From Streptomyces halstedii (lineage in GTDB: Bacteria; Actinomycetota; Actinomycetes; Streptomycetales; Streptomycetaceae): DNA of 64,000 nucleotides. The stretch lies in assembly GCA_000720535.1 (NCBI GenBank), contig JOAZ01000010.1, positions 124,001-188,000 on the forward strand. Direction: 5' to 3'. The notes under the pieces were generated by a model. It saw only the letters and a program-made list of their open reading frames with translations. It was not told the DNA's origin and searched no databases. Below, piece by piece: positions 11,844 through 20,757 of the stretch. Each line of letters begins with the position of its first letter. Positions within the stretch are counted from its first letter, which is position 1. Position numbers and translations under genes: made by a program.

Positions 11844-12143
11844 GTGGGGCTCCTGATGGTTCTGGCGCGCTGTCGGCGCGCCGGTACCGCTCCGGCGTGC
11901 GCCGCGTGGGCGGACGCGCGGGCGGGTGGGCGGTGTCGGACAGAGGGCGGAGCCCTCGCCTTCTCTAACGCTCCGCACGCCCGCACGTTGCGCAACTCAT
12001 GGTGGGCCGACCGGAGACGCACCCGTCCGCCGGATGCTTTGCCTCTCCGCCGGTCCGCCTAGTACCGTAGGCAGCGATTGGTGACAGCACGCTCAACTGT
12101 GTCATCATCTGCACGCACCACTCGCGTCCGCGCGAGGTGTGCT

Positions 12144-12234
12144 GGAGGCGTCGCCTAGTCCGGTCTATGGCGCCGCACTGCTAATGCGGTTTGGGTCTTA
12201 AAGCCCATCGAGGGTTCAAATCCCTCCGCCTCCG
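12144..12234 (+). tRNA. tRNA-Ser (anticodon GCU)
   Basis: The 91-nt class II tRNA has acceptor arms GGAGGCG and CGCCTCC, a long variable arm and a TTCAAAT T-loop. The anticodon GCT is at 12180-12182. Confidence 0.96.
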
Positions 12235-12241
12235 CAAGATC

Positions 12242-12274
12242 CCGAAGCCCCGTGCCCCAGGCACGGGGCTTCGG
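12242..12274 (+). terminator. Terminator after tRNA-Ser(GCU)
   Basis: A 15-bp perfect stem (CCGAAGCCCCGTGCC, 12242-12256, with its complement at 12260-12274) has a CCA loop, 7 bases after the tRNA. Confidence 0.85.
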
Positions 12275-12440
12275 TCGTCCCAGCCCTCCGGAGAGCGTCA
12301 CTGTCCGGCGTTTTCGCAGGTCAGGCGTGGTGCGGCCAATGGATTTCGCGTCACGGCGCAGGTCATGTAATGTTGTTCCCGCAACGCCGACCAGGCAGAA
12401 AAGCCCAGGGAGCGAAGCCGCCGGGTAAGACCGACGACAG

Positions 12441-12513
12441 GCACTCGTAGCTTAACGGATAGAGCATCTGACTACGGATCAGAAGGTTGCAGGTTCGAAT
12501 CCTGCCGAGTGCA
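12441..12513 (+). tRNA. tRNA-Arg (anticodon ACG), integration target
   Basis: The 73-nt tRNA has acceptor arms GCACTCG and CGAGTGC, discriminator A, a TTCGAAT T-loop, and anticodon ACG at 12474-12476. From the anticodon loop onward its sequence is repeated at 19289. The 3' part of this gene was therefore supplied by an integrated element, and the gene stays functional. Confidence 0.96.
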
Positions 12514-12521
12514 CAGCAAGC
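12472..12521 (+). repeat. attL: 50-bp attachment-site duplication at tRNA-Arg
   Basis: The 50 bases from the anticodon loop through the tRNA 3' end plus CAGCAAGC are identical to 19289-19338. After one mismatch a further nine bases (AGAGGCCCT) also match. This is the hallmark of site-specific integration into a tRNA 3' end. Confidence 0.93.
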
Positions 12522-12561
12522 AAGAGGCCCTGTGGAGTGATCCACAGGGCCTCTTGCTTTT
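12521..12561 (+). terminator. Element-encoded terminator for tRNA-Arg
   Basis: A 16-bp perfect stem (CAAGAGGCCCTGTGGA at 12521-12536 with its complement at 12541-12556) has a GTGA loop and is followed by CTTTT. It replaces the original tRNA terminator, now stranded at attR. Confidence 0.88.
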
Positions 12562-13029
12562 GCCTTGACGGCAGTGTCTGACGGCAACCGCTCCTGTCCC
12601 GATAGGCGAGGGCGTCTGTCGATGCGAACCGCGGCCCCACGCGCAAGCATCGCGGGGCCGACGCCTGGCACCCGGTGACGACGTTGAGGTGGAGGTTGGC
12701 ACGACTGCCCATCCCTTCGTTCCCTTCAAGCCCTCTGGGGTGTGAGTGGGTGCCGGTAACTTGCTGTCGTGCTGCGTCGCGAACACTAGATGTTGTGGTG
12801 TGCCTATTGCTTCATGGCGCATGTTGGGGGTGTCTTGCTTGCTGCCGGGCCGTTCGGGGTGCTTCACTTGATCCGCTACAAACCAAGGCGGCCCGCCTAC
12901 GGCGGTCCGCGCGCTGGCGGCCGACCAGCCACGCTCTGCAGCCGAACCGACCGCATAGGCGCAAGCAGAGCTCAGCCGTCCGGCCGCTCCCCGGTGCCAT
13001 CGGCACCGGGTTCCTGATTGGAATTCCAC
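12562..13029. other. Non-coding stretch at the left end of the island
   Basis: Apart from the TGACGGCA pair I see no gene with convincing codon structure. Open readings here are chance extensions through the tRNA. GC-rich inverted segments such as GCGGCCCGCCTACGGCGG at about 12888-12905 resemble sequence often found in actinomycete integrative elements, but I cannot assign a role. Confidence 0.55.
12566..12586 (+). repeat. Two TGACGGCA repeats near attL (possible integrase arm sites)
   Basis: TGACGGCA occurs at 12566-12573 and 12579-12586, about 50 bases inside the left end. The same octamer recurs inside the right end at 19183 and 19195, each set associated with CCTTGACGGCA. Confidence 0.5.
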
Positions 13030-13075
13030 GACCGGACCACCCGGGATGCTGTCCAGGCTGAGGGGTGGTCCGGTC
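13030..13075 (-). terminator. Terminator of the kinase-like gene
   Basis: GACCGGACCACCC at 13030-13042 pairs with GGGTGGTCCGGTC at 13063-13075 (13 bp, 20-nt loop), just beyond the stop of the leftward gene. Confidence 0.75.
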
Positions 13076-13090
13076 TTTGGCTGTGGGGAG

Positions 13091-13927
13091 TCAGCTCAGG
13101 GCTTTGCCCACCTCGTAGATGGTCGGCCGATCCTCCGGGGCATGGCTGAGCATCGCGTCGATCAGCTCGCCCAGCGGACCGGGAGCCTTCACAGGCCGGC
13201 GCTTGCCGTTCGCCACTGCCTCTCTCTGGACGGGGCGCGGAGCGTCGTCCGGATACTCCATGGCTCGCCACCCAGTGGCGGAGATGAGGAGAGACGCGCC
13301 GAGTCCGTAGACGTCGGCTTCCTGTGTGGGTTCGGCCTCTCCGGTCGCGAGCACGCTGCGCGCGATCTCCGGCGCCTCGTAGTGGACGAGGCAGCCGCGG
13401 AACGGGAAGTCGTACCCCTCGGGTATGTGCCCGCCCCGGGCAAGAGCGAGGTCGATGAGGTGCGTCTGCTCCGGCCCGATGATGAAGTGGGCGGGCTGTA
13501 CGTCACCGTGTGCCCAGCCCTTGGCGTGGAGTTCGGCCAGCGCCTCGACACAGCCCAGGGCGACGCTGGTGTGTGGTTCGGTGGGTGAGTCCTTCGCACG
13601 GCAAGGCTCCCACAGTCGGTAGAGATCCGGCCCTTCGTGCCACGGCTGGAGGTTCCACGTTCCGCGCTCCCACTCGCCGTACGCCAAGTCATCCAAGCCG
13701 AGGCGATGCAGCACGGCCCCCTCGCGTGCGGGTGCGAGCGCGGTCCAGGGCTGGGCGGGCCAGTCGGCTGTGGCCTCGATCGGATGACCGAGCTTCACGG
13801 CGTAGTGACCCCGATGGCTCTCCACGTCCCAGACCCTGGAGCCCCGGCGGTCCACCACCAGGCGCTGAGCCGTAGGCATGAGGGCGTCGAGCACCACGAT
13901 CGGCAGTTCAGGGGATGACCCGGACAA
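13091..13927 (-). CDS. Protein-kinase-fold protein (Ser/Thr or small-molecule kinase-like)
   Basis: The 278-residue protein contains a putative ATP-lysine (HYAVKLGHP), a catalytic loop HAKGWAHGDVQPAHFII with the HGD-x-Q-P-x-H pattern, and LIDLALAR where kinases usually have D-F-G. It then has YEAPEIARS (APE-like) and ADVYGLGASLL, as in the C-lobe of eukaryotic-like kinases. The HGDxxxxH pattern is also shared with aminoglycoside-phosphotransferase-type enzymes, so the substrate could be a protein or a small molecule. The TTG start is placed by GGAGAAGAGACG upstream. It is the last gene of the island's leftward group, set off from the gene before it by a 15-bp hairpin. No membrane span is seen. 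Confidence 0.72.
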   Translation of the reverse strand: MSGSSPELPIVVLDALMPTAQRLVVDRRGSRVWDVESHRGHYAVKLGHPIEATADWPAQPWTALAPAREGAVLHRLGLDDLAYGEWERGTWNLQPWHEGPDLYRLWEPCRAKDSPTEPHTSVALGCVEALAELHAKGWAHGDVQPAHFIIGPEQTHLIDLALARGGHIPEGYDFPFRGCLVHYEAPEIARSVLATGEAEPTQEADVYGLGASLLISATGWRAMEYPDDAPRPVQREAVANGKRRPVKAPGPLGELIDAMLSHAPEDRPTIYEVGKALS

Positions 13928-13953
13928 CGTCTCTTCTCCTTCCGGTTCCGGCG

Positions 13954-13988
13954 AACGCGGCCGGCCACGACTCGTGGCCGGCCGCGTT
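13954..13988 (-). terminator. Strong intergenic hairpin (attenuator or terminator)
   Basis: AACGCGGCCGGCCAC (13954-13968) and its perfect complement (13974-13988) sit between the leftward genes ending at 14003 and starting at 13927. It may reduce or end transcription into the kinase-like gene. Confidence 0.7.
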
Positions 13989-14002
13989 GCTGTTGTCGTG
14001 TG

Positions 14003-14446
14003 CTACGCCTGACCGTACGGCCGGCCGCAGTCCGAGTCGCACTGCGCGAGGTTGGTGCCGTCCACGGTCCACAACTCGTCGAAGACCATGAACCCGGCCG
14101 CCTTCATGGCACGCGCGGAGGCGGCGACCTTCTCCGAATCACGGGCTCCGCCGCCCGGCGCCGGGTTGTGGTGCAGGAAGCGGCCCGCGTACCGCTCGCA
14201 CAGGGCCGCGTACTCCTTCGTGTGCAGGATGAGCGCGTGCAGCCCGAGGTCCACGTCGTCCGACGGGACCATGGGAACGGTGGCGGTGGCAGCGGTGACC
14301 AAGAAGGCCACGGCCTGGTCCGCGATCTGCTGGGCACGCTCGGGCGACTGCCCGTTGTGGACGACCACGAAGTGGGCGAGGCTTTCGAACAACTCCTCAC
14401 CAGCTACCGCGCGACCGGTCCTCTGATCGTTCGCCGTTGTCGTCAT
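14003..14446 (-). CDS. Conserved protein with His/Cys residues, unknown function
   Basis: This is a protein of 147 residues. Visible features are an acidic N-terminal helix, LGLHALILHTKEYAALCERYAGRFLHHNP in the centre, and a Cys-containing tail CDSDCGRPYG. The LHALILHTKEYAALC segment resembles glycine-rich-domain-type proteins in which a His, Tyr and Cys cluster could bind metal; that resemblance is from memory and the role is not known. AAGGAG lies seven bases before the ATG at 14446. It belongs to the leftward group that starts next to the XRE regulator, and similar proteins often sit near XRE/NUDIX/kinase-like loci in Streptomyces. Confidence 0.65.
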   Translation of the reverse strand: MTTTANDQRTGRAVAGEELFESLAHFVVVHNGQSPERAQQIADQAVAFLVTAATATVPMVPSDDVDLGLHALILHTKEYAALCERYAGRFLHHNPAPGGGARDSEKVAASARAMKAAGFMVFDELWTVDGTNLAQCDSDCGRPYGQA

Positions 14447-14599
14447 GCGACTACTCCTTGTGTGTGGCGGTGCGTGGCACTTACCTCCCGCCTCGGTCGC
14501 TGAGCCACGGCTCAAGGGCGACCAGAAGGCGGGCTTGGAGGGCTGGCCCCGAACGGGGACGGGGAGCCGGGAAACTGGCACCCGTTCGGGGCGGCCGGT

Positions 14600-14698
14600 C
14601 TACTGGCCGACGGCGAGAGCCATGCCGATCACCAGGCCGTACGACCTGCTGATCATGACGATGAACAGGACTCCCGCATATCGGCCGATGGTGCGCAT
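14600..14698 (-). CDS. 32-residue membrane peptide
   Basis: MRTIGRYAGVLFIVMISRSY begins a peptide of 32 residues that is mostly one hydrophobic helix with two basic residues at its start and Arg-Ser-Tyr in the middle. Its ATG overlaps the stop of the preceding gene (TGATG), so translation is probably coupled. Peptides of this size in such loci can be inhibitors, anchors or toxins. No homology is claimed. It is not a classical RiPP precursor: it has no Cys and no leader/core boundary that I can see. Confidence 0.55.
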   Translation of the reverse strand: MRTIGRYAGVLFIVMISRSYGLVIGMALAVGQ

Positions 14699-14952
14699 CA
14701 CAGCCCATCCCGGGTGTTGGCGTTCCGGATGGCCAGACGTGCGCTCAGTTCCTCCCGCGCACTCGGCGGCACGACTTTGTCCGGCATGGCATCCCACTCC
14801 GTGCCGCCGCGGATCGGCCGTATCTGCACATGGCCGCCGACCTCGCCCATGACGATGCCGATACGTCCCCAGGTGGTGTCCTTCGCCAGTTCACCGATGC
14901 CTGGTCTGGTCTGCTGGTTGCTCGCCATGCGGATGAGGATCCTGCCGCTCAT
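14698..14952 (-). CDS. Small conserved protein, unknown function
   Basis: The protein is about 84 residues long with a compact centre reading TTWGRIGIVMGEVGGHVQIRPIRGGTEWDAMP, as in a small beta-barrel. Comparable short proteins with the pattern D-x-x-x-x-R-x-G-x-V-M-G occur widely in Streptomyces regulatory loci without a known function. The start is uncertain: ATG at 14952 is used, with GGAGG 13 bases upstream; GTG at 14982 and ATG at 14928 are in frame. It is first in the leftward group and diverges from the XRE gene, sharing the palindromic region 14959-14995. Confidence 0.6.
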   Translation of the reverse strand: MSGRILIRMASNQQTRPGIGELAKDTTWGRIGIVMGEVGGHVQIRPIRGGTEWDAMPDKVVPPSAREELSARLAIRNANTRDGL

Positions 14953-14958
14953 CAGGAC

Positions 14959-14995
14959 GTCGGAACCTCCGACAAACCCCACTTCGGGACGTCCC
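14959..14995. promoter_or_regulatory. Candidate operator between divergent island genes
   Basis: Two palindromes lie between the leftward group and the XRE gene: GTCGGA-ACC-TCCGAC (14959-14973) and GGGACGTCCC (14986-14995). A half site AACGTCCC follows at about 15007-15014. The neighbouring XRE protein is the obvious candidate ligand. Confidence 0.5.
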
Positions 14996-15047
14996 GCGTC
15001 GGGTAGAACGTCCCTAGTGCCGTCCCCGGGCGTGAGGAGAGATTGAG

Positions 15048-15791
15048 ATGCCGAACGAGAGGTTACGTGCTGCCATGGCAGCCGGCGGCTGGACCTGTGC
15101 CGCCCTTGCGGACAAGGTCGAAGTCGATCCCAAGTCCGTCGAAAGATGGGTCAATCTAGGGCGTACGCCGCGCCGGACCACGGCCATGCTGGCAGCGGAA
15201 ATACTAGGAGAAGACGTGCACGCTCTATGGCCCGCGCTCCGGCAGGCACGCCCTGCCCGCGCTGTCAGTCCGGAACTTGTGGCTCTCTACGACCAGCGGG
15301 CGGACGTCCCCGTGTCCACCTTCGTGGACATGCTGACTCAGGCGCGCGAGCACATCGACGTGCTGGTGTACGCCGCCGTCTTCCTGCACGAGGCGTACCC
15401 ACGGCTCAACGACTTGTTGCGAGAGCGAGCGGACGACGGGTGTGCGGTCCGTATCGCGATCGGCGACCCGGACAGTGCGAATGTCCAACAGCGCGGCGCG
15501 GAGGAGAGGTTCGGCCACGGAATCGAGTCCCGTTGCCGACTTGCCCTCATGCACTACCGCCCCCTTACTGGGGTACCTGGCATCGAGGTACGGACCCATG
15601 CCACCACGCTCTACAACTCGATCTACCGTGCGGATGACCAGGCAATGGTCAATGCCCATGTCTGGGGCGTGAACGCCTACGGCGCTCCCGTATGGCATCT
15701 GCGGCGCAGCGGAGAGGGCGGCATGTTCGACACCTACGCCAGCAGCTTCGATGCGGTCTGGGAGACCGCGACGCCGGTAAGCGAAGGGTGA
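15048..15791 (+). CDS. XRE-type regulator with C-terminal DUF5919
   Basis: The 247-residue protein has an N-terminal helix-turn-helix (about 3-60; CAALADKVEVDPKSVERWVN). A larger C-terminal domain carries VLVYAAVFLHEAYPRLNDLL and RTHATTLYNSIYRADDQAMVNAHVWG, matching the DUF5919 type often fused to XRE domains. That domain has a phospholipase-D-like flavour, but I see no full HxK(x)4D motif, so catalysis is doubtful. AGGAGAG lies before the ATG. Codon 6 is TTA (15063-15065), so translation should depend on the bldA tRNA. The NUDIX gene follows two bases after the stop. It probably regulates the divergent genes. Confidence 0.82.
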   Translation: MPNERLRAAMAAGGWTCAALADKVEVDPKSVERWVNLGRTPRRTTAMLAAEILGEDVHALWPALRQARPARAVSPELVALYDQRADVPVSTFVDMLTQAREHIDVLVYAAVFLHEAYPRLNDLLRERADDGCAVRIAIGDPDSANVQQRGAEERFGHGIESRCRLALMHYRPLTGVPGIEVRTHATTLYNSIYRADDQAMVNAHVWGVNAYGAPVWHLRRSGEGGMFDTYASSFDAVWETATPVSEG

Positions 15792-15793
15792 TC

Positions 15794-16264
15794 ATGGCAC
15801 GGACCGAGTACTACGACGATCCGGCGGCACCTGAGCCGAACAGCTTGGTGGTTGCCGCATCCGCCGTGGTTACCGACGACGAAGGGCGTGTGCTCCTCCA
15901 GCACCGACGGGATAACGATCTTTGGGCGCTCCCTGGTGGCGGCATGGAGATGACCGACTCACTCCCGGGAACGGCTGTCCGCGAGGTGAAGGAGGAAACG
16001 GGCTTGGACGTAGAGATCACCGGGCTCGTGGGCACGTACACCGACCCTCGCCACATCATCGCCTACTCGGACGGTGAGGTGCGCAGACAGTTCAACGTCT
16101 GCTTCACCGCCCGTGTGGTCGGGGGCCGGCTTGCCCTCTCGGACGAGTCCACGGAACTGCAGTTCGTCCAGCCGGAGGAGATCGATCAACTACCGATGCA
16201 CCACACGCAGCGGCTCCGGATCCGTCACTTCCTGGAGCACCGTGATCGGCCCTATCTTGGCTGA
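15794..16264 (+). CDS. NUDIX hydrolase
   Basis: The 156-residue protein has a Nudix box reading GGGMEMTDSLPGTAVREV then KEETGLDV, which keeps the catalytic R-E-x-x-E-E core. NUDIX enzymes hydrolyse nucleoside diphosphates linked to another group. The gene starts two bases after the XRE stop, so the two are co-transcribed. In the Streptomyces element pSAM2 a Nudix protein (Pif) provides immunity against redundant transfer. This is known of that system; whether the present gene acts likewise is only a possibility. The substrate is unknown. Confidence 0.86.
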   Translation: MARTEYYDDPAAPEPNSLVVAASAVVTDDEGRVLLQHRRDNDLWALPGGGMEMTDSLPGTAVREVKEETGLDVEITGLVGTYTDPRHIIAYSDGEVRRQFNVCFTARVVGGRLALSDESTELQFVQPEEIDQLPMHHTQRLRIRHFLEHRDRPYLG

Positions 16265-16389
16265 TCCCGTAGACCACGGTGAACGGCAACTCTGGTGGAG
16301 GCGACTCAAAACTCACCCTCCAAGTCGTTGGGAGGGCACCTTGACAGCTGTTCAACCCGACAGCCACTCTGCTCAACCTGACCTGATAG

Positions 16390-16671
16390 GTGTCTAACTT
16401 GGGCACTCGTGCTATTTTGAGGCGTCGTCAGTTGAGGTCAGGGGTATGTGGGGCGGGTCCGACTCCCGTAGCGCTGATCTTGGTGCTCGTTTTGGTCGCG
16501 GTTGGTCTGAATTACGGAATCCAGTCCCTGAAGAGAAACAAGCCGGAGTCCGAGTCCATCTTCGAACGAAAGGAGTGCATCATGACACAAATCAGGATGA
16601 CATTGATCGCGGGCATGGAAGTGGCCGAAGCGATCGCCACGAACAGCGTTGCCGGCGCACTCCTTACCTGA
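16390..16671 (+). CDS. Small membrane peptide, start uncertain (16390 or 16582)
   Basis: Two readings share one frame. The long one (93 residues, GTG at 16390) contains a clear membrane helix VALILVLVLVAVGLNYGI followed by LKRNKPESESIFERKEC. The short one is a 29-residue peptide beginning MTQIRMTLIAGMEVAEAIAT at ATG 16582, which has the better ribosome-binding site (AAAGGAG, six bases upstream). A textbook terminator follows the stop, arguing that some gene is expressed here. If the long form is right it could be a Spd-like or small anchor protein; if the short one, a peptide effector or truncated remnant. I cannot decide between them. Confidence 0.45.
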   Translation: MSNLGTRAILRRRQLRSGVCGAGPTPVALILVLVLVAVGLNYGIQSLKRNKPESESIFERKECIMTQIRMTLIAGMEVAEAIATNSVAGALLT

Positions 16672-16680
16672 GCTGACGAA

Positions 16681-16724
16681 CAAGAGCCCCGCATGTGCAA
16701 GCGCGGGGCTCTTGCTGTTTTTTT
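16681..16724 (+). terminator. Rho-independent terminator with T-run
   Basis: CAAGAGCCCCGC (16681-16692) pairs perfectly with 16703-16714, followed by CTG and seven T (16718-16724). This canonical form is rare in Streptomyces and fits foreign DNA. Confidence 0.92.
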
Positions 16725-16738
16725 CGCTAATCTCCAGC

Positions 16739-16951
16739 TTAGGCAACCTTCGAGATTGAGTACCGGTCCTTGATTGTGCGAGCGAAGTAGCGGCCGTGGC
16801 TTGAAGCCGACATCAGGCCGCTATGGACACTCTCCGGGACGGAAAAATACCTGTAGATCCCAGAGCGAAATTCGATCTCTAGCACCATCTCTGCCGGTAC
16901 GTAGCCGACCGATATGATGTTGGAAGAGGTAACTGGAAGTCTCTCCGTCAC
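16739..16951 (-). CDS. KTSC-domain protein
   Basis: This 70-residue protein is a single KTSC domain. It has VTSSNIISVGYVPAEMVLEI, then FRSGIYRYFSVPESV and SSHGRYFARTIKDRYSISKV, which cover the Tyr-x-Tyr, VPE and GRYF-x-x-x-IK-x-x-Y conserved positions. KTSC was named from lysyl-tRNA synthetase C-termini and is thought to bind nucleic acid, but its role as a free-standing protein is not established. Its ATG overlaps the OLD stop (ATGA), so both are made from one mRNA, with OLD first. The tight coupling suggests the two proteins act together or in fixed ratio. The gene is visibly more AT-rich than the chromosome. Confidence 0.82.
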   Translation of the reverse strand: MTERLPVTSSNIISVGYVPAEMVLEIEFRSGIYRYFSVPESVHSGLMSASSHGRYFARTIKDRYSISKVA

Positions 16952-18849
16952 TGCCCCTGTCTCGCCATGGCTTTTACATTCTGGATGATCTGCTTAATGA
17001 CGAACGGCGGTTCTCCACTTGCCTCGAATGCTGCTCGTGCGTAGGTGTAGGTGTTCTTCTCGCTGTACCCGATGCCGGATTGAATCAGTTCCTCCACCTT
17101 CTCTCCCCACTCGGGCCAATCGGATTTAAGCGTCGCCTCCAGGCAGTCTGCGAATACTGCGTAGCCAATATCTGCGTGAGTGGGAGGCAGATCTGAAATT
17201 CTCGATTGTCCGAGATACATGAGAAGGCGGTGATTCTCCGCACGCTCATTCAGTTCTGCATTGCGGATATCTCGCGATTTCCTTCCATTCTTTTCCATTC
17301 GGGCGCCAACCCCGGAATCGGCGTCAAATACTGCGAAACATGGAATTCCGAGCAGCGTAAGGACGGCGTGGCTTAGGTAGATAGCTGTCTTGTGGCCGGC
17401 CTCGGCAACATGAACGCCTTCCACCGCCAACGGAGCTCCATCGCGTGTAGCGGCTCCTTCCAGGACCGCCTTATCAGTTTCCCCCTCCACTAGGACAACG
17501 GAAGAGGCGAAGAGGGCCTCAGGTAGCCTGTTTAGAATCGCCGCCCCAATTTGCTTGCGAACTCGCTCCTCAGGCACGAAACCTGACAACTTCTCGATCA
17601 CGTCATCAACTCGCACATGGGCAATGGAAATGGCCCTGTGGCTGGAACTGTTCCGCACACGGCTGATTCGGCGGATTTCGTGAAAGTGATGCGGGTCAAC
17701 GAAGATCGGATTATGGGTGGCGTATGCCACTTGGGCCATTTGGTTCGGATCTTCAGCGATCTTACGTAGCACCTGAGAGAAGGCTCGGGCCTGTACGGGA
17801 TGCTGGTATAGCTCTGGCTCCTCGATGGCCAAGCACACAGCCTTGGATCGCGATCCTTCGCCGCCACGATCCGAAAGAAGTTTTAGTGCGGCAATAATCA
17901 TGGCACGCTGAAATCCGTGCCCTTGACGCTCGACGGTTGTTTCGACAGGGCCATCAATAATATTCACCTTGAAGGATGCCCTGACGGGCTTGTAAGGGTT
18001 GTCGACTGGCGAAATCGTCACGCTTCTACCTGCCGAGAAAACCTCGACTGCCTTGGTTAGTTCTTTGGAGATTAGATCCAACTGCGGGGCAAAGTTTTTG
18101 GTTGAAATGCGCGCCCGTTCCAGATTCAATCGTGCATCGAGATCCGCCAATTCGGCATCAGCGATCTTTCTGTCCACGGCGCGTTCGATGATTCGCCCGA
18201 AAATCGCAGATCGGGCGTCAGTGGATTCCTCAAGCGCGCGCAGGTCTGCGCTCACGAGGATGAATTCGAATAGGCTTGCGAGCTTCCCCTTTCCGGCAAA
18301 GCCGAAGAAGTTATTTGCCTGGATGTCGGACTCTACGAGCCTGTCGGGGTGATTTCTTTCCCAAGCGATCATTGCCTCTTCCACCAGTGCTTCACTGCCA
18401 GCTGATGGAAGTTCAAGATCGGGCCGTTCCTCGCGTAGCGAATTGTAAGCTTTTCGCTTGGAGGTAGCGTTTGGCTGACTGCGGACCGCTTCGAATGGCG
18501 GGAAGGTCATCCCTTTTCCGGTGATCTTGTCATCGCCATTATCCCATGTGCGCCAAATGATGAGACGGTCCACCCCGTCGGGGGTGTAGTGGCCTAGCTC
18601 TTCCCGATCTTGCGTGGTGAGTGAGTCGAACTCAACTTCCACACGGATGCGACTGCTGCCTGCCTCAACGCACAGATCGTCGAGATCTAGGGATGTTCCC
18701 TTTTCTCCGTTGAAGAACCAATCGAGCGCGCGCAAGATAGTTGATTTGCCAACTCCGTTGGGGCCGATGATGGAAGTGACACCATCAAACCGTACTTCGG
18801 CCAACTGAAGGCAGCGGAAATTCTCAATCCGCGCTCGGATCATCCTCAT
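16948..18849 (-). CDS. OLD-family ATP-dependent endonuclease (ATPase plus TOPRIM)
   Basis: The 633-residue protein has an ABC/SMC-like ATPase split around a helical insertion, then a TOPRIM nuclease. Visible are Walker A GPNGVGKST (29-37), a signature-like VERQGHGFQRAMI, Walker B VCLAIEEPELYQHP and the switch His in YATHNP. TOPRIM residues are Glu in VVLVEGETDKAV and the DxD of FAVFDADSG, so both active sites look intact. OLD proteins cleave or nick DNA and many, including phage P2 Old and GajA of Gabija, act in phage exclusion. No GajB-like UvrD helicase or reverse transcriptase is adjacent, so it is not Gabija. It is coupled to the KTSC gene. A GAAC-N4-GTTC box lies 90 bases upstream. Confidence 0.9.
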   Translation of the reverse strand: MRMIRARIENFRCLQLAEVRFDGVTSIIGPNGVGKSTILRALDWFFNGEKGTSLDLDDLCVEAGSSRIRVEVEFDSLTTQDREELGHYTPDGVDRLIIWRTWDNGDDKITGKGMTFPPFEAVRSQPNATSKRKAYNSLREERPDLELPSAGSEALVEEAMIAWERNHPDRLVESDIQANNFFGFAGKGKLASLFEFILVSADLRALEESTDARSAIFGRIIERAVDRKIADAELADLDARLNLERARISTKNFAPQLDLISKELTKAVEVFSAGRSVTISPVDNPYKPVRASFKVNIIDGPVETTVERQGHGFQRAMIIAALKLLSDRGGEGSRSKAVCLAIEEPELYQHPVQARAFSQVLRKIAEDPNQMAQVAYATHNPIFVDPHHFHEIRRISRVRNSSSHRAISIAHVRVDDVIEKLSGFVPEERVRKQIGAAILNRLPEALFASSVVLVEGETDKAVLEGAATRDGAPLAVEGVHVAEAGHKTAIYLSHAVLTLLGIPCFAVFDADSGVGARMEKNGRKSRDIRNAELNERAENHRLLMYLGQSRISDLPPTHADIGYAVFADCLEATLKSDWPEWGEKVEELIQSGIGYSEKNTYTYARAAFEASGEPPFVIKQIIQNVKAMARQGQ

Positions 18850-18938
18850 GCCAACTAATCATGGAGCCGGTCTCTGGCCACAGGCAACCCATTTCTCCAT
18901 ATCGGCAACTTTGACAACTTTAGTCTGACTAGTTACAA

Positions 18939-18950
18939 GAACCTGTGTTC
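18939..18950 (-). promoter_or_regulatory. LexA-like core upstream of OLD-KTSC
   Basis: GAAC-CTGT-GTTC is a perfect inverted repeat matching the GAAC-N4-GTTC core of actinobacterial SOS boxes. The flanks (AA and TA) differ from the usual TC and GA. It is 90 bases before the OLD start, in an AT-rich stretch that probably holds the promoter. Confidence 0.42.
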
Positions 18951-19288
18951 TAATATGCTGCCAGTCTGGGCGGTAGGAGCAGACCGGTTGCGACGTGCCC
19001 CAACTCGGATTCAAGCGGTTGACTGCTCTGCATATGCTTCTGGGCAGCAAGACTGGTGCGGAGGCGGGAAGCCGGGTCGGCCTGGTGTGGTGGAAGTCTG
19101 CATCCGACTCGTCCTGGTCGCTGCGAGTCCGCCCCTGATGCGCGAGGCCAGGTCGAACCGCCGTTACACCATCGCTCGGAGGTGACGGCAGCCTTGACGG
19201 CAACGACGGCACATGGGCGCACATGATCGCCAATCTGTGCAAACGGAGTGAGGGGCCGCAGACAGTCTTCACAGTGCGGTGCCCGATC
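18951..19288. other. Non-coding right end of the island
   Basis: I see no convincing gene in these 338 bases. The stretch holds the repeated TGACGGCA motifs (19183-19211) and runs into attR. Confidence 0.55.
19183..19211 (+). repeat. TGACGGCA repeats near attR (possible integrase arm sites)
   Basis: TGACGGCA occurs at 19183-19190 and 19195-19202, with a one-mismatch copy CGACGGCA at 19204-19211. They mirror the pair near attL and lie about 80 bases inside the right end. Confidence 0.5.
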
Positions 19289-19338
19289 CTACGGATCAGA
19301 AGGTTGCAGGTTCGAATCCTGCCGAGTGCACAGCAAGC
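19289..19338 (+). repeat. attR: displaced 3' end of the original tRNA-Arg
   Basis: This is identical over 50 bases to 12472-12521. It lacks the tRNA 5' half, so it is not a tRNA gene. Confidence 0.93.
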
Positions 19339-19372
19339 CAGAGGCCCTCAGGAGAAATCCTGGGGGCCTCTG
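19339..19372 (+). terminator. Original tRNA-Arg terminator, stranded at attR
   Basis: CAGAGGCCCTCAGGA (19339-19353) pairs with 19358-19372 (15 bp, one G-T pair, 4-nt loop). It shares its first bases with the element-borne terminator at attL. Confidence 0.82.
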
Positions 19373-19474
19373 TCGTGTGGCGTGACGGACAGCGGTTGAC
19401 GACGACCTCTTCCGGGGCGGCCATCGAATCGCTGGGCGTCGTCGGCCGCCTCCGGGAACCATCGCCCCGCCAGA

Positions 19475-20008
19475 TCAGCGGATCGCCTCGTCCATGAGGA
19501 CGTAGAGCAGTCCGACCAGGGAGCCGCTGCTGATGATCTCGCGGCGGTCGATCATGCCCCGTACGTCGGCCAGCGGGATCCACTCGATCCGGTCCGACTC
19601 GTTCTTCTCGGTCGGCGGTCCCTTGTACGTCGCGCCGTCCGCCCGGAAGACGTGGTGCTGGGAGTCGGTGATGCCGTTGGCGGGCTCGGCGTAGATCAGC
19701 GGCTTGACGGGGCCGGGCCGCCAGCCGGTTTCCTCCAGAACCTCACGGGCCGCCGCGTCGGCCGGCGTCTCGCCTTCCTCGACCAGGCCCATGGGCAGCT
19801 CCCACGCCCAGGCGTCCGTGATGAAGCGGTGGCGCCACATCATCAGGACCTCACGCCGCTCGTTGACCACGGCCGCCACCGCCAGGTGCCGGAGCTTGAC
19901 GACGTGGTGCTCCCAGCGGTTGCCGTCCGGCGTCTCGACGTCGGTGAGCCAGAGGTTCACCCAGTCGTTCTCGTAGATCGGACGTTCCCCGTGGATCTTC
20001 CACCGCAT
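19475..20008 (-). CDS. NUDIX hydrolase (ADP-ribose pyrophosphatase-like)
   Basis: The 177-residue protein contains a full Nudix box: GLVEEGETPADAAAREVL followed by EETGW. Upstream strands read HHVVKLRHLAVAAVVNERRE and WRHRFITDAWAWELP. The ELP before the Nudix box and the overall length fit ADP-ribose/GDP-mannose pyrophosphatase-like enzymes that clear nucleoside-diphosphate sugars. The ATG start is used. It is chromosomal, about 135 bases outside attR, and unrelated in sequence to the NUDIX gene on the island. The substrate cannot be fixed from sequence alone. Confidence 0.86.
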   Translation of the reverse strand: MRWKIHGERPIYENDWVNLWLTDVETPDGNRWEHHVVKLRHLAVAAVVNERREVLMMWRHRFITDAWAWELPMGLVEEGETPADAAAREVLEETGWRPGPVKPLIYAEPANGITDSQHHVFRADGATYKGPPTEKNESDRIEWIPLADVRGMIDRREIISSGSLVGLLYVLMDEAIR

Positions 20009-20088
20009 CCTGCGGCCCCTCTCGATCGGCCTCCAGGGTCTCAGGCCGAGTCGGCGGGGGCGCGCAGGTCCAGGCCCTTGGGGTCCGT

Positions 20089-20757
20089 TCAGTTGAAGGG
20101 GACGGCGTCCGTCGGGACGGTGTGCCAGTTGGTGACGATCGGGTCCTCGACGGTGATGGTGCCGACCCGCAGCGAAACCGGGTCGGGGTCGTCGTTGGTG
20201 ACGGAGACGATGATGCTGTCCAGTTCCTTGCCACCGTCCGAGTTGGTGGTCTTCGGGTTCACCCCGGCGTACGCGGTGGTGCCCCCGCTCAGCGTGATCT
20301 GCTGGCCGACCGACTGCTCCGCGGGGCCCGCCTCGGTGCCGTCGGAGCCGAACGCCACGACCGGAAGCGCGGCCGGCAGGACACAGGTGATCCCCGGCTT
20401 CGCCTTCGCCATGACCAGGATGTAGCCGCCGGCCTGGGTCTCGGACCTGCTGCTCCAGGAGATGTCGTTGGAGCCGCAGCTCTGCCCGACCGGCTCCCGC
20501 TTGCCGTTGCCGGTGTCGGCGCCTGAGCCCGCTCCGTCCTCGGTTCCCTTGCCCGTCGTGTCGGAGCCCTTGTCGGAGCCCTCACCGCTGCCCGAACTCG
20601 ACGGGCTGGCCGCGTCGGCGGCCGGAGCGGCGGACGGGGAGCCCTGGGCGGCGCCGGTGTCCGTCGCCGTGTCCCCGTCCTCGCACGCCGTCATCAGCAG
20701 CATGCCGCCCACGAGGGCTGCGGAGACGAGAAAGGCCTTGCGACGGTTGCCGGACAT
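20089..20757 (-). CDS. Secreted lipoprotein with DUF4232-like domain
   Basis: The 222-residue precursor has a lipobox LLMTAC (Cys25) after a basic and hydrophobic signal, so it should be anchored in the outer leaflet of the membrane. A low-complexity Ser/Gly/Asp/Thr linker (about 27-85) leads to a beta-rich domain with SCGSNDISWSSRSE, GGYILVMAKAK, ITLSGGTTAYAGVNP and a second Cys (GITCVLP). This matches the DUF4232 type common in Streptomyces lipoproteins, whose function is unknown. Two cysteines in the domain may form a disulfide. The ATG start is preceded by a purine-rich stretch. It stands alone. Confidence 0.82.
   Translation of the reverse strand: MSGNRRKAFLVSAALVGGMLLMTACEDGDTATDTGAAQGSPSAAPAADAASPSSSGSGEGSDKGSDTTGKGTEDGAGSGADTGNGKREPVGQSCGSNDISWSSRSETQAGGYILVMAKAKPGITCVLPAALPVVAFGSDGTEAGPAEQSVGQQITLSGGTTAYAGVNPKTTNSDGGKELDSIIVSVTNDDPDPVSLRVGTITVEDPIVTNWHTVPTDAVPFN

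Follow-up and report, generated by a model that had tools for sequence, protein, structure and literature searches.

Proteins of the OLD family, which combine an ABC-ATPase with a TOPRIM nuclease domain, have been divided into class 1, which includes P2 Old and the OLD of Thermus scotoductus (6p74), class 2 of the Gabija system, class 3 of retrons, and class 4 of PARIS, a scheme laid out in the available portions of PMC10568477 and PMC12796447. The first of these, a 2023 review, lists in its accessible text as open whether class 1 OLDs alone defend broadly. A 2026 report, as far as its available text goes, begins to answer this for Escherichia coli ybjD, a class 1 OLD that gives anti-phage phenotypes when induced; its TOPRIM domain is reported there to be dispensable (PMC13261556), so that nuclease action is not assured. 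Other activities described are the killing of recBC cells by P2 Old (accessible part of PMC10568477) and a cell-cycle role, apparently not a defensive one, for the archaeal OLD Cran1 (accessible part of PMC12796447).

The KTSC domain is called DNA-binding in the available text of PMC9503650 and RNA-binding in that of PMC7824862. The former also mentions HerA-KTSC-endoDNase systems as unpublished observations, the nearest prior statement to the pairing of OLD and KTSC described here. In the open-access literature on KTSC, OLD, HerA and SIR2-HerA, no OLD-KTSC system is named among the matches listed; none of the OLD papers examined is among the matches listed for the word KTSC, and the available portions of PMC11291478 and PMC11559045 do not mention it.

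The OLD and KTSC genes and their island

The pair lies in a 64,000-nucleotide stretch of a Streptomyces halstedii contig (JOAZ01000010.1), hereafter the window (Table 1). The frame of its OLD gene opens with ATG and runs through 633 codons with zero internal stops, and its product matches the Pfam profiles AAA_15 (E 3.6e-36) and OLD-like_TOPRIM (E 6.3e-14), each above its cut-off, bearing out the intact ATPase-TOPRIM gene of the initial annotation. The top PADLOC match of the protein is Old (E 1.1e-45), and its AlphaFold model (pLDDT 81.7) finds 6p74 as the top fold match (E 1.6e-17), followed by GajA and the retron Eco8 OLD. Across 26 aligned OLDs, the window's own included, K35, E343, E344, H350, H379, E455, D509 and D511 are invariant. 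The Walker A lysine, Walker B glutamate, D-loop histidine and H-loop histidine (K35, E343, H350 and H379) correspond to K34, E276, H283 and H310 of the Thermus scotoductus OLD, and the TOPRIM ligands of the ExxxD and DxD motifs (E455, D459, D509 and D511) to its E377, D381, D431 and D433; D459 is absent from some of the 26 sequences, and the placement of the further ligands S478/E480 in the alignment with the Thermus protein is uncertain. The catalytic residues of the latter have been tested experimentally, according to the accessible part of PMC7049728. A search for an OLDa-specific docking patch, comparing 4 with 22 sequences, returned 33 positions scattered through all domains with no clear site.

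Table 1. Features of the OLD-KTSC island in window coordinates
Feature	Position	Strand	Remarks
Left boundary repeat, over tRNA-Arg 3' end	12472..12521	+	50 nt, identical to right copy
14-bp hairpin	16680..16715	-	~23 nt past KTSC stop; z -4.28
Free-standing KTSC-domain gene	16739..16951	-	70 aa; GTG start overlapping OLD stop
OLD-family ABC-ATPase/TOPRIM nuclease gene	16948..18849	-	633 aa; from translation, profiles, alignment and model
Upstream stretch, probable promoter/leader (inferred)	18850..18930	-	~20 nt alike by eye in five loci
Right boundary repeat, putative att site	19289..19338	+	50 nt, identical to left copy

The downstream protein is a complete member of the KTSC family (PF13619, E 7.9e-22, all 58 model positions covered), in agreement with the free-standing 70-residue gene first proposed. 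Its model (pLDDT 94.9) superposes on 4rgi and 7x8c with TM scores of 0.94–0.97, and the predicted order of three strands, two helices and one strand is the same in both structures. In PADLOC, neither P0002 (E up to 0.1) nor either of two SIR2-HerA KTSCs that were tried had a match.

At the junction, which reads CAGTGACGG, the KTSC start is a GTG and the 4-nt overlap is therefore GTGA; the overlap itself had been correctly recognized in the initial annotation, the ATGA given for it being wrong for this strain, though found in the nearest relative (L050). An overlap of 1 or 4 nt is present in each of the five OLD-KTSC loci. The hairpin 3' of the KTSC stop, the T run of which lies on the plus-strand side only, is probably a terminator shared by the two genes, and its position agrees with an OLD-KTSC message terminating there. 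A scan for a sigma-70 consensus upstream of OLD found none, and in an Rfam search over 12000–20200 for a retron-like ncRNA only tRNAs reached gathering scores.

The surroundings are those of a mobile island, as had been proposed: an exact repeat, the left copy of which covers the last 43 nt of a tRNA-Arg (12441–12514), bounds 6.8 kb, and G+C falls to 54–57% across 16–19 kb, against 64–80% in the remaining 1-kb windows. The eight island ORFs profiled, OLD and KTSC included and a few short ORFs lying outside the scan, contain no integrase or relaxase; the others include a kinase-like and an HTH/DUF5919-like protein, both weak matches at or below curated Pfam cut-offs, and a NUDIX protein. The product of the kinase-like gene (13091–13927) weakly matches LanL and MAD6 kinases. 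The defense-island enrichment suggested as a check did not emerge: among eight neighbors of OLD-KTSC loci, PADLOC matched one, the AAA ATPase of L051 (mad3, E 3.2e-14). Apart from this gene and the kinase and NUDIX genes of the window, which match PADLOC weakly, no clear defense gene was recognised beside the pair, which counts against a defensive role.

Conservation and spread of the pair

OLD matches were found in 20 of 392 genomes of the genus, comprising the window's own, G222 (83% identical), G379 (81%) and 17 others at no more than 50%; KTSC sits at the OLD stop in the first three, and the loci of the remaining 17 yielded none. A collection of 84,980 species, scanned with two short peptide patterns in a manner biased to close relatives and not exhaustive, yielded 36 OLD loci, with KTSC present in all 3 at 83–92% identity and absent from all 33 at 41–51%. 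As the OLD DNA of L052 is identical to that of G222, five distinct genomes have the pair, which is thus kept in every genome found with an OLD more than 80% identical (5/5, the window's own included), so that the adjacency proposed for checking extends beyond one strain. Nine lower-identity loci are common to the two sets, leaving 41 distinct relatives at 41–51%, none of which has KTSC beside OLD; downstream coverage is as short as 232 nt in L075 and 388 nt in L062, and the OLD of G261 is split over two contigs, its C-terminal piece being followed by 1.5 kb free of KTSC. Four phage or prophage OLDs (L178–L181, ~41% identical) likewise have no KTSC. Together with the 41 relatives, they indicate that KTSC is not needed for an OLD to persist. 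The OLD of Burkholderia phage KS5 (23227–25086) is 43% identical to the window's over 98% of its length. No conserved small partner was found in the other relatives, where neighbors mostly vary, although an upstream gene of 720–829 aa is common to five of them and a downstream one of 434–437 aa to three.

The pair itself is found in differing surroundings. L050 has about 5 kb of island in common with the window and L051 a part of it, whereas alignment of G222 and G379 to the 12–20 kb region is limited to OLD and KTSC, save that in G222 it takes in 63 nt upstream and in G379 there is also a tRNA-like match of 35 nt; one viral contig holds the G379 version of the pair letter for letter. Where dN/dS could be measured, it shows purifying selection on OLD (0.04–0.06; 4 of 10 pairs) and on the faster-changing KTSC (0.07–0.14; 3 of 10), the other pairs being saturated. 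OLD-KTSC is thus a genuine, mobile and conserved two-gene variant of OLD, which in its exact form occurs in five genomes of one genus, Streptomyces.

KTSC beside other effectors

KTSC (PF13619) occurs in 10 of the 392 genus genomes, and four of the ten genes adjoin an OLD gene. With 13 OLD-TOPRIM matches across those ten genomes, and each genome assumed to have 8,500 genes, the chance of four such adjacencies is ~2e-12; if the three homologous pairs are counted as one event, two adjacencies in ten have a chance of ~4e-6. The fourth case, G019, reverses the order of the window, with KTSC preceding, by 52 nt, a different OLD, which has an OLD-like TOPRIM above cut-off and matches the window's OLD only marginally. 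The same arrangement, with a gap of 51–52 nt, is seen on plasmids of Streptomyces NBC_00503, NBC_00727 and S. globisporus and on one Haloferax plasmid. All three plasmid homologues of this second OLD type at 87% identity or more have KTSC, eight at 36–43% lie outside the 52 plasmid records with KTSC, and relatives of the G019 OLD are present in 20 other genus genomes, none among the ten with KTSC. By these homology counts, the KTSC-bearing members of the second type form a narrow group, as in the window's type. Another OLD gene lies ~7 kb from the G019 pair (L182; G019:C1:8211744-8213606), 41% identical to the KTSC-linked one. Independent recruitment was not established by the KTSC tree: the two Streptomyces OLD-linked groups are separate, yet a single clade is not rejected (p-AU 0.175, or 0.098 with Haloferax added, in a re-run that left out five long rows).

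The remaining genus KTSCs, judged by eye, lie beside a possible metallo-hydrolase (G080), near a beta-lactamase-like gene (G323, G333) or, as longer frames, in phage-like surroundings (G048, G091, G224). In L183 (7731–8961), KTSC directly follows the gene of a 324-aa protein, judged by eye to resemble a metallo-beta-lactamase, with zero Pfam matches.

More widely, KTSC recurs beside or joined to defense effectors, namely SIR2-HerA, an E1-like protein and the second OLD type. Among 27 plasmid KTSC loci, a non-random choice made for variety from 52 records, 8 are SIR2-HerA-KTSC, 4 KTSC-OLD, 1 E2-E1(ThiF)-KTSC and 1 behind a 186-aa ATP-binding protein, while in 13 no effector was recognised in contact with KTSC. 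Profiles confirm HerA and SIR2 in the Sulfitobacter locus and HerA in that of Pseudoalteromonas, the E. coli plasmid HerA is confirmed through a PDB match, and the other loci rest on annotation. In Pseudoalteromonas a SLATT-domain gene comes after KTSC, which is thus not always the last gene. In a phylum sample, KTSC is found in 12 of 296 genomes (the window's own included); nine neighborhoods read from the other 11 (G546 and G672 left out) include SIR2-HerA-KTSC in G528 and G393, HerA-KTSC in G468, and six without a clear partner. KTSC follows HerA directly in the SIR2-HerA operons of L200, L204–L209, L212, L187 and L188, and, by eye, on the viral contig L176. The E1-linked case, on a Halorubrum plasmid (L198:678–3710), has an E2/UBC protein, a ThiF-type E1 and an overlapping KTSC gene. 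Elsewhere KTSC overlaps a membrane-bound-looking protein of 136–151 aa in haloarchaea (L194:3504–4110, L197:1175–1826) and a 309-aa protein of no recognised kind on a Deinococcus plasmid (L196:3495–7198), where a pair of UvrD helicase and AAA ATPase genes, Gabija-like by annotation, is nearby.

A physical connection is suggested by structures. In 8wiv and six sister PDB entries, HerA (residues 11–624) and KTSC (631–696) are in one chain, the HerA part of which matches the E. coli plasmid HerA at E 8e-171, a protein whose KTSC is a separate gene; 8wld is titled a SIR2/HerA antiphage complex. These titles come from structure-match records alone, and for the 8wiv and sister codes no relevant paper is among the matches listed. 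As KTSC is split from HerA in some systems and joined to it in the 8wiv chain, it would be physically part of the SIR2-HerA complex, if the chain is natural.

This bears on the idea that KTSC is an antitoxin-like inhibitor that restrains a toxic OLD and is itself removed upon infection. Such a role would suit a small translationally coupled partner and the toxicity of P2 Old to recBC cells noted above, and phage KTSCs could then displace the host's: the best 80 of 110 viral-contig KTSCs are 38–63% identical to the query KTSC, one of them belonging to the OLD-KTSC pair itself. Nevertheless, a domain that can share a chain with HerA is unlikely to be a labile antitoxin, and relatives of OLD live without KTSC, so that this reading seems to us quite improbable. 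Many viral contigs (among L100–L175, e.g., L107) have, by eye, a small KTSC gene between lysis-like and packaging-like genes.

Composition bears on a second idea, in which KTSC, as a subunit that binds DNA or RNA, gives OLD its specificity by delivering it to a particular nucleic-acid structure. The two published descriptions of the domain speak for it, as do the basic KTSC of the window (pI 9.2) and the basic proteins found in phages (8/9), in the second Streptomyces OLD type (4/4), in the E1-linked case, in the one beside the hydrolase and among most unlinked KTSCs. However, charge is mixed in the five-member clade of the window's OLD (pI 9.2, 8.1, 5.1, 6.0 and 6.0), so that conserved nucleic-acid binding is unsupported there, and the SIR2-HerA KTSCs range from acidic to neutral in each of 11 cases examined (pI 4.5–6.7), which is better suited to docking on a protein. 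Judged from composition, protein docking fits the KTSC of the window's clade better; basic KTSCs linked to OLD elsewhere may still bind nucleic acids, though as an account of this pair such a subunit appears unlikely.

Likewise improbable is a service in element maintenance or DNA repair, e.g., on integration or replication intermediates, rather than in defense. The loci in the window, G222 and G379 look like mobile elements, there is a phage-type integrase gene near that of G019, and the cell-cycle role of Cran1 offers a precedent. Against this stand the patchy distribution of the pair in differing surroundings, the partnership of KTSC with SIR2-HerA, and the defensive roles of P2 Old, Gabija and retron OLDs. 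Some KTSC genes of prophages and haloarchaea have no effector recognised beside them, so that the domain may have uses outside defense, a point against the defensive reading.

A predicted adaptor role and comparison with known systems

These patterns partly support the two-gene system of the initial annotation and suggest a module in which OLD would be the effector, acting as an ABC-ATPase and TOPRIM DNA nuclease, and KTSC, translated from the same message probably through stop/start coupling, would bind OLD as a small docking or adaptor subunit and set when, or on what, the nuclease fires, protecting the host or host element. That the two proteins work together is highly probable, and that their role is defensive is likely; the full mechanism, with KTSC bound to OLD as predicted, we regard as evenly balanced. 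Judging from SIR2-HerA systems, in which KTSC is encoded by a third gene or lies within the HerA chain, the most likely targets are phages or competing mobile DNA. More tentatively, KTSC might be an exchangeable trigger or docking module across two kinds of OLD, SIR2-HerA and E1-like systems, with phage KTSCs being sensed or competing, a generalization that for now we consider doubtful.

In domain order and catalytic residues the window's OLD is like class 1. However, class 1 OLDs are single genes in the available account of PMC10568477, whereas here an overlapping KTSC partner is kept in 5/5 genomes, the more distant kin mostly looking stand-alone. With a small partner coupled to this class-1-like OLD and lacking from its kin, the two states can be compared directly. 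Gabija is likewise made up of an OLD nuclease and a downstream partner gene (GajA-GajB), but its partner is a UvrD/PcrA/Rep-like helicase, of which none is present among the eight island ORFs scanned, and not a 70-aa KTSC. The retron Eco8-type OLD and PARIS AriAB are alike in their OLD-type ATPase and TOPRIM parts; the island ORFs scanned include no reverse transcriptase and no known ncRNA was detected, the absence of both this enzyme and GajB having been rightly called in the initial annotation, and PARIS has the ATPase and TOPRIM in separate genes rather than in one chain as here. SIR2-HerA (Nezha) differs in its effector, a SIR2 NADase with a HerA motor, neither being found among the island ORFs scanned; in it KTSC is directly 3' of the effector ATPase gene, as in OLD-KTSC, or else joined to it (8wiv/8wld), a link that makes this unexplained domain testable as a common part of several defense machines.
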